Notes under the pieces: model-generated
The model's input: the letters and a program-made list of their open reading frames with translations, nothing else
Told to the model about the DNA's origin: nothing
Database searches by the model: none
NCBI RefSeq assembly: GCF_001507535.1
Contig: NZ_LQBN01000001.1
Span: 868,001-932,000, forward strand
From: Thiomicrospira sp. WB1
Lineage (GTDB): Bacteria; Pseudomonadota; Gammaproteobacteria; Thiomicrospirales; Thiomicrospiraceae
Reading direction: 5' to 3'
Length of the DNA stretch: 64,000 bases
Program-made: the position numbers and the translations under genes
Shown here: positions 28,935-44,340 of the stretch, piece after piece
Numbering within the stretch: the stretch's first letter is position 1
Layout of the letters: every line of letters starts with the position of its first letter

Positions 28935-29010
28935 GGGTCGTTAGCTCAGCTGGTAGAGCAGTTGGCTTTTAACCAATTGGTCGCGCGTTCGAATCGCGCA
29001 CGACCCACCA
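28935..29010 (+). tRNA. tRNA-Lys (anticodon TTT), first copy
   Basis: The 76 bases fold into a full cloverleaf: acceptor stem GGGTCGT/ACGACCC, D arm AGCTCAGCTGGTAGAGC, anticodon loop CTTTTAA with anticodon TTT, T arm GCGCGTTCGAATCGCGC, and an encoded CCA end. Confidence 0.97.
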
Positions 29011-29043: not shown

Positions 29044-29119
29044 GGGTCGTTAGCTCAGCTGGTAGAGCAGTTGGCTTTTAACCAATTGGTCGCGCGTTCG
29101 AATCGCGCACGACCCACCA
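29044..29119 (+). tRNA. tRNA-Lys (anticodon TTT), second identical copy
   Basis: All 76 bases are identical to the first copy, 109 bases upstream. It has no separate promoter that I can see, so the two are probably made from one transcript. Confidence 0.97.
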
Positions 29120-42764: not shown

Positions 42765-44152
42765 CATTGAAAATCTATAACACCGAAACCAAGCAGAAAA
42801 CGACCTTTCAACCGATTGAGCCGGGCAAAGTGGGTCTGTATGTATGCGGGGTCACCGTTTATGACTATTGTCATGTCGGCCATGCCAGGGTGATGGTGGT
42901 GTTTGATACGGTGGTGCGTCATTTGCGGGCACTGGGGTATGAAGTGACCTATGTGCGCAACATCACCGACATTGACGATAAAATCATTCAGCGAGCGCTT
43001 GAGAATCAGGAGCCGGTGCAGGCACTGACCGAGCGTTTTATTGACGCCATGCACGAAGACGAAGCGGCTTTGAATGTGCTGCGACCGGATCAGGAACCGC
43101 GTGCCACCGCTTTCATGGGACAGATTGAGCAAATGATTCAGACACTGATTGACAAAGGGCATGCCTACGCCGCTGACAATGGAGACGTGTACTTTCATGT
43201 GAAGTCGGACCCGGATTATGGTCGTCTGTCTGGCAAGACGCTGGATGAATTGGTGTCCGGATCACGTGTTGAAGTCAATTCGGCGAAGAAAGATCCACTG
43301 GATTTCGTGTTGTGGAAAGCGTCCAAGCCGGAAGAGCCGGCCTGGTCCTCACCCTGGGGAGAAGGGCGTCCGGGATGGCACATTGAATGTTCGGCCATGG
43401 CCACCCAGTGTCTGGGGCAGCACATCGACATTCATGGCGGCGGGTTGGATCTGAGTTTTCCACACCATGAAAATGAAATCGCGCAATCGGAATGTGCGAC
43501 CGGCGAACAGTACGTCAACACCTGGATGCACTGTGGTTTCGTGCGCATTGACGATGAGAAGATGTCTAAGTCGCTGGGCAATTTTTTTACCATCCGAGAG
43601 GTGCTCAAAGCCTATCACCCTGAGGTGGTGCGATACTTCCTGTTGGCGAGTCATTATCGAAGCCCGGTGAACTATTCCGAAGAGACGCTGGAGGCGGCCA
43701 AAGCGAGTCTGCATCGACTTTATACCGCTTTGGAGTCGGCACCTGCTTCCGAGACCAGTGAATCGGAACCGACCGATGCGTGGCGTCAGGCGTTTGATGA
43801 CGCCATGAATGATGATTTCAATACGCCACAAGCGCTGGCAGTGTTGTTTGATCTGTCCAAAGCCCTCAACAAAACGCCGAGCCATGCGTTGCATGAATGC
43901 TTGCAGTCTCTGGGTGGGCGTTTGGGCTTGCTGCAAGTGTCACCCGAGGCATTTTTCAAATGGCAGCCGTCCCAGTCCGCTGACGCGGAAGGTGCCCTGG
44001 ATGACGCCCGGATTGAGACGTTGATCGAGGAGCGTGCTCAGGCAAGACAGAACAAAGACTTTGCTCGGGCCGATGCGGTTCGCGATGAGTTGTTGGCTGC
44101 TGGCATTGAGCTGTTGGACGGGCCGCAAGGCACGACCTGGCGACGTGTTTAA
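42761..44152 (+). CDS. cysS: Cysteine-tRNA ligase
   Basis: Charges tRNA-Cys. The 463 residues have the zinc and ATP region [17 protein letters not shown], the second Zn ligands in [10 protein letters not shown] and the KMSKS loop [13 protein letters not shown]. The start overlaps the glnS stop (ATGA), so the two are translationally coupled. Confidence 0.97.
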
Positions 44153-44165
44153 ATGCGCATCTATG

Positions 44166-44210
44166 ATAAATAAAATCAATGGCGCAGACTGTCTCAATGA
44201 TTTTATTTAT
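44166..44210. repeat. 13-bp inverted repeat after cysS
   Basis: ATAAATAAAATCA (44166-44178) is repeated inverted at 44198-44210 with a 19-base loop. It is AT-rich, starts 14 bases after the cysS stop, and has no T-run after it. It may act as an mRNA 3' end stabiliser. Confidence 0.7.
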
Positions 44211-44218
44211 ATTATGGT

Positions 44219-44247
44219 TTGACAATATAAGGCTTTCCTAATAAGAT
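44219..44247 (+). promoter_or_regulatory. Orphan promoter in the cysS-slt gap
   Basis: A perfect -35 box TTGACA (44219-44224) is followed after exactly 17 bases by TAAGAT (44242-44247), four of six bases of TATAAT. No plus-strand ORF follows before the terminator at 44312-44340. Confidence 0.5.
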
Positions 44248-44253
44248 AGAAGA

Positions 44254-44340
44254 TATTCATGTTTCTTCATGAGTATCCTCCTCTGATTATTTCAAATTTG
44301 AAGTAATGTTCAGCCCCGTCTTTGAGCGGGGCTTTTTTTT
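44254..44340 (+). ncRNA. Candidate small RNA between cysS and slt
   Basis: A transcript starting near 44254 would hold a first hairpin (44252-44277, GATATTCATG with CATGAGTATC, loop TTTCTT; its first bases depend on the true start), then the single-stranded CCTCCTC (44277-44283), which can pair with Shine-Dalgarno sequences, then a second hairpin (44286-44307), then a Rho-independent terminator. The length would be about 87 bases. Base composition is visibly more AT-rich than the neighbours. It has no similarity that I recognise; an inactive remnant is the main alternative. Confidence 0.35.

Follow-up and report, generated by a model that had tools for sequence, protein, structure and literature searches.

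The interval between cysS and slt, in the 64,000-nucleotide stretch of DNA analysed here (the window), raises the question of whether it holds a gene for a free-standing regulatory RNA and, if so, which mRNAs such an RNA would act on. The upstream neighbour cysS (plus strand, with glnS further upstream) ends at 44152, and slt, on the minus strand, ends at 44310 with its stop codon at 44310-44312. An initial annotation had placed a complete small RNA (sRNA) gene within a gap of 157 bases; that length applies to 44153-44309, provided that the long slt frame is correct, but the terminator lies beyond the gap. In this genome the last codons of slt overlap the terminator on the opposite strand (44310-44340). 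This overlap is not general: the slt tail is not conserved, and in relatives slt mostly ends further off.

The sRNA gene occupies about 87 nt of the plus strand (44254-44340), its 5′ end being placed from the -10 box and its 3′ end from the T run. It follows a sigma-70-type promoter, TTGACA-N17-TAAGAT, on the same strand (44219-44247; -35 box at 44219-44224 and -10 box at 44242-44247), which matches 10 of 12 consensus positions and lies where the initial annotation had it. Between the two boxes is an operator-like inverted repeat, ATAAG-N6-CTAAT (44227-44242), which is kept in homologs of three genera and is the only site of its type in the 64-kb window. Directly upstream of the promoter, a self-complementary match marks an imperfect inverted repeat (44166-44210) at which the cysS mRNA possibly ends and whose conservation in relatives is not general.

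When folded, the 87-nt RNA forms exactly the three hairpins that had been described, with an energy of -28.8 kcal/mol (z = -5.95) that none of 200 dinucleotide shuffles equalled. Hairpin 1 (44255-44274), AUUCAUG-UUUCUU-CAUGAGU with the loop UUUCUU, is defined by the fold and by the alignment of homologs. It is followed by an unpaired anti-Shine-Dalgarno seed, UAUCCUCCUC (44274-44283), which includes the CCTCCTC stretch (44277-44283) already noticed between the hairpins. An AT-rich second hairpin (44286-44307), indicated by the fold and by compensatory changes, precedes an intrinsic terminator (44312-44340) with a covarying stem (44312-44333) and an 8-U tail (44333-44340); all of these elements are on the plus strand. 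On the single sequence, promoters (3 found, 0.7 expected) and terminators (1 found, 1.0 expected) are little above chance, so the case for a gene is made by conservation, with 47 homologous promoters. A search of the window with Rfam at gathering thresholds gave two tRNAs alone and no family for the sRNA; the tRNA genes are in tandem (28935-29007 and 29044-29116) and have identical scores.

The window belongs to a Hydrogenovibrio genome; among named organisms, Hydrogenovibrio halophilus DSM 15072 is closest at this locus. BLAST detects the element in 10 of 11 further congeners, flanked by cysS and slt in every case where the contig shows its neighbours. In a species-level genome collection, the pattern TTCATG-N6-8-CATGAGTATCCTCCTC returned 16 records, all from Hydrogenovibrio, Thiomicrorhabdus, Thiomicrospira or relatives (Thiotrichales/Piscirickettsiaceae MAGs); we infer from the record names that our genera g1, g5 and g6 correspond to these three names, in that order, and that the family is Thiomicrospiraceae. 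A covariance model built from 11 sequences found a single copy per genome in 51 of 63 family genomes and in six of seven genera, and a model of 47 sequences again gave 51 of 63. Nearly all genomes with the element carry it adjoining cysS and in the same direction. Among other gammaproteobacteria, the 47-sequence model detected the sRNA in 0 of 365 (4 of 369 matched, all four within the family). The seventh genus (g2) was initially taken to be without the RNA, a reading dropped when a more sensitive pass gave diverged, relocated copies in the genus's four genomes; the statement 'absent RNA, absent site' is therefore not made for g2. In these copies a core, UUUUCUUCAUGAGUAUCCUCUUAU, lies behind a different gene with a terminator directly after it and without hairpin 2. 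Six g5 MAGs, most of them incomplete, gave no convincing copy in the sensitive search.

Selection can be followed in the promoter, the fold and the core. The 17-nt spacer is kept in 47 of 47 homologs, and 46 of the 47 promoters score 10-12 of 12. Between the -35 and -10 boxes, 34 of 35 distinct promoters of g1, g5 and g3 carry the palindrome ATWAG-N6-CTWAT, either perfectly or with one to two deviations (match 0.83 in register, 0.13-0.50 in slid registers); it is missing in g6 (Thiomicrospira) and g4. Across the 47 homologs, in an alignment that was fitted to the structure of the covariance model, 96.6% of pair cells are standard, compared with 83.0% after shuffling and no more than 53.0% when the register is slid. 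The covariation score of 0.377 exceeds both the shuffled value (0.119) and every slid one (0.099 or less). Changes on both sides occur in 12 of 26 pairs. For each of the nine terminator pairs there is at least one homolog in which both partners have changed, with 99% of cells paired; hairpin 2, which one diverged genus lacks, has both-side changes in three of ten pairs and 92.9% of cells paired. Hairpin 1 is near-invariant and thus allows no covariation test, and since both it and the seed barely vary, sequence, rather than fold alone, is under selection. Relatives thus retain promoter, core and all three hairpins through the family, the opposite of a loss of the hairpins with the cysS terminator alone kept. 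On this comparative evidence we consider it beyond reasonable doubt that the sRNA gene is real as a conserved element.

What the RNA might pair with can be read from its core, AUUCAUGUUUCUUCAUGAGUAUCCUCCU, which is almost invariant among homologs. Within the core, UAUCCUCCU is identical in all 47 aligned homologs and unpaired in both the fold and the consensus. The complement of the core, GAGGAGGAUACUC-AUG-AAG-AAA, has the make-up of a translation start: a Shine-Dalgarno site, spacing, a start codon and two lysine codons, with the loop and 3′ arm of hairpin 1 complementary to AUG-AAG-AAA start regions. We searched genomes with two patterns, both chosen after the core was seen. AGGAGGATA occurs seven times in the 2.28-Mb home genome, once in the sRNA itself and once as the ribosome-binding site of soxX, the first gene of soxXYZA; two of the sites, soxX being one, are well spaced from the start codon of a long frame. 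The profile scores of three of the operon's products exceed their cut-offs (SoxX 90.6 bits against 61, SoxY 171.1 against 125 and SoxZ 109.9 against 76). Among 37 matches to AGGAGGATA-N1-8-ATG in 17 relatives, the site that recurs, the sRNA aside, is that of soxX, in each of the six congeners tested as well as in g7. The second pattern, GGAGG-N4-9-ATGAARAAA, gave 23 matches in six genomes of four genera: six in the sRNA, six at a SoxK-like lipoprotein gene (one in every genome), four at soxA and seven elsewhere. The home genome has the site at two loci, one near 153-155 kb and one near 316 kb of C3, which between them hold soxA, soxX and the SoxK-like gene. A site at an alpha/beta-hydrolase gene was rejected as a target; it is not recurrent and ranks 51st of 225 by duplex energy.

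Counts over larger sets of starts agree with these searches. GGAGGA precedes 28 of 30 soxX starts, 28 of 30 soxA starts and 26 of 29 SoxK-like starts, compared with 9 of 223 background genes of the home genome; it is found at 0 of 30 soxY and 0 of 26 soxZ starts of the same operon. One Thiomicrorhabdus SoxK-like leader reads GGAGGATACTC-A-ATGAA, an 11-base match that extends past the Shine-Dalgarno site, and several other SoxK-like leaders carry GGAGGATAC. A separate motif of the AAGCTC/AGAGCTC type lies just upstream of the Shine-Dalgarno site in 19 of 30 soxA and 23 of 29 SoxK-like leaders (4 of 225 background genes; 0 of 56 soxY and soxZ together), and it has no partner in the sRNA.

Pairing energies were ranked against a set of 225 genes, drawn from 264 kb of home-genome sequence, using simple gene calls and energies and with the sox operon included on purpose. 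Although soxA had not been chosen for complementarity, it ranks first of 225 by duplex energy, soxX ranks first by co-folding, and the SoxK-like gene would rank eighth by either measure. Over 30 species the median for soxA lies within the best 2-3% of duplex energies in the background; the median background percentiles are 2% for soxA, 10% for both soxX and the SoxK-like gene, 48% for soxY and 98% for soxZ. In those examined of the g5 MAGs that gave no convincing copy, the pairing energy of soxA is weaker on average. Holding CCUCC fixed and shuffling the rest of the core leaves a strong signal for the SoxK-like gene (z -4.0, fourth of 225), a modest one for soxA (z -2.7, tenth) and a weak one for soxX (z -1.9, 32nd); other genes score equally well in this test. 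Energies computed across genera indicate that co-adaptation of target and sRNA is slight. In individual leaders, sRNAs with CCUCC-UCUGA accompany soxA leaders of the form UCGGA/UCAGA-n-GGAGG, which is suggestive of co-adaptation; Thiomicrospira has an sRNA with CCUCC-UUUAG and a different soxA leader.

A genuine sRNA that uses its anti-Shine-Dalgarno core for pairing could instead act mainly on other genes, in which case the sox matches would reflect no more than how strong ribosome-binding sites are in genes for abundant proteins; we consider this unlikely. Abundant exported proteins can be expected to have MKK starts and strong Shine-Dalgarno sites, the latter being expected at highly expressed genes generally, and part of the complementarity may therefore merely reflect high expression. 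Judged by either duplex energy or shuffled-core z-score, other home-genome genes do rank equally high, in a background drawn from about 264 kb. Against this, both searches returned rare sites, and these came back repeatedly at the genes for three subunits of a single complex, one of which is encoded at an unlinked locus, and soxY and soxZ of the same operon are without the site. The extended match GGAGGAT, found in 22 of 30 soxA, 17 of 29 SoxK-like and 6 of 30 soxX leaders but in only 1 of 223 background genes, continues from the Shine-Dalgarno site into AU and fits the sRNA better than it fits the 16S tail. The idea that CCTCCTC pairs with ribosome-binding sites thus gains candidate targets that are recurrent and biologically coherent, and we regard the Sox genes as the likely target set.

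The SoxK-like gene encodes a lipoprotein of about 110 amino acids, is unlinked to soxXYZA and occurs in 57 of the 61 family genomes. Six of six members match the SoxAX-binding protein family SAXB/SoxK (NCBIfam NF052674), at best with an E value of 9.4e-8, but their scores all fall far short of the 95-bit cut-off, as do those of the mature part by itself, which retains a match (best E 1.9e-6, 28.3 bits). A PDB profile search with the lipoprotein gave weak helical-repeat matches alone. By its sequence it looks like a remote SAXB/SoxK, which makes it a candidate for the SoxK subunit reported as not found in Thiomicrospira-type bacteria (PMC4891895).

Because the element follows cysS directly and shares its orientation in almost every genome, it could also be chiefly the tail of the cysS transcript, a terminator from which a fragment is incidentally processed. 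We consider this very unlikely. The element has its own promoter, kept in 46 of 47 homologs; conservation is strongest in the 39-nt core and the -35 region, and the terminator letters vary freely with pairing retained. Moreover, one genus, the seventh, has moved the core behind another gene while retaining promoter-like sequence (near 1501-1630 of the loci).

Still less probable is a tiny gene on the minus strand, GAGGAGG-ATACTC-ATG AAG AAA CAT GAA stop (MKKHE, 44267-44302), of which the core would be the initiation region. The Shine-Dalgarno site, spacing and ATG are perfect in the homologs examined, but the frame mostly stops after about 4-10 codons with no conservation past them, and promoter and T-tailed terminator point the opposite way in 47 of 47 homologs; we read the frame as a by-product of a core directed against initiation. 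An RNA that sequesters proteins, as CsrB and RsmY do, or one that resembles 6S RNA would likewise be small, structured and single-copy, but either reading is hardly credible here: the RNA contains zero GGA motifs, where the CsrB/RsmY type has several in loops, and it has no Rfam match at threshold.

Hfq-dependent trans-acting sRNAs of the CyaR and RyhB class occlude ribosome-binding sites with a C/U-rich seed, and a U-tailed terminator is the usual 3′ docking feature for Hfq. The RNA resembles this class in its size, own promoter, unpaired, pyrimidine-rich and conserved seed, U-tailed terminator and single copy, and in the presence of hfq in the genome (PF17209, 100.4 bits). It differs in having no sequence family match, in having Sox thiosulfate-oxidation genes as candidate targets and in a seed that includes the AUG-AAG-AAA complement inside hairpin 1. 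Relaxed Rfam searches gave weak matches driven by the terminator and CCUCC. Anti-hemB (RF02837; 30.0 bits, E 1.2e-5, threshold 49.5) and the Betaproteobacteria toxic sRNA (RF02278; 23.2 bits, E 0.0059, threshold 50), both far under threshold, likewise place a CCUCC seed ahead of a hairpin and end in a U-tailed terminator, but the first hairpin, genomic site and organisms differ; the suhB/mmgR model scored 15.2 bits against a threshold of 41. NfeR1, presented as an alphaproteobacterial anti-Shine-Dalgarno sRNA with a CCUCCUC-type motif (PMC10746234), shares that motif with no homology detected. The RNA thus appears to be a new family of trans-acting sRNA, absent from Rfam 15 at threshold, and by analogy it is probably Hfq-dependent, as had been proposed for a transcript of about 87 bases, given the family-wide promoter, core and hairpins and the hfq gene.

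In our judgement the evidence is best, and probably correctly, explained by a free-standing Thiomicrospiraceae sRNA that has its own promoter and blocks translation initiation of soxA, soxX and the SoxK-like gene, which we take as its putative main targets. The sRNA would be made from that promoter, with its conserved operator-like repeat in several genera, and end at the intrinsic terminator; the operator would link it to a signal. The loop and 3′ arm of hairpin 1, together with UAUCCUCCU, would pair with the Shine-Dalgarno site of a target, and opening of hairpin 1 would extend the pairing over the start codon and codons 2-3. With both sites covered, ribosomes could not start. Hfq, whose gene is present and for which the 8-U tail is suited, may assist the sRNA on the soxA, soxX and SoxK-like mRNAs. 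Repression is most likely, rather than activation, given the position of the sites and the known behaviour of such RNAs. The outcome would be less SoxAXK, the complex of SoxA, SoxX and SoxK that loads thiosulfate onto SoxYZ; the carrier proteins SoxY and SoxZ, encoded in the same operon, would be less affected.

Sox genes are known to be controlled transcriptionally by the ArsR-type repressors SoxR and sHdrR in an alphaproteobacterium (PMC10451225, PMC12423496). Like these repressors, the sRNA would act on thiosulfate oxidation genes, but at the level of translation and by RNA. In the papers searched, neither this RNA nor an sRNA that acts on sox genes is described. We tentatively propose that one family-wide sRNA coordinately sets the translation of all three SoxAXK subunits from two unlinked loci, one target being the SoxK reported missing. 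If true, this would be the first known case of RNA-level control of the Sox pathway; to our knowledge there is no earlier one. The Sox system is a core energy pathway of these sulfur oxidisers, and its regulation in the group is hardly known. The invariant core matches the starts of the SoxAXK genes, and the sRNA therefore probably tunes the energy gained from sulfur. A single-copy, near-invariant RNA that points at the enzyme starting thiosulfate oxidation would thus offer a testable post-transcriptional control of chemolithotrophy.
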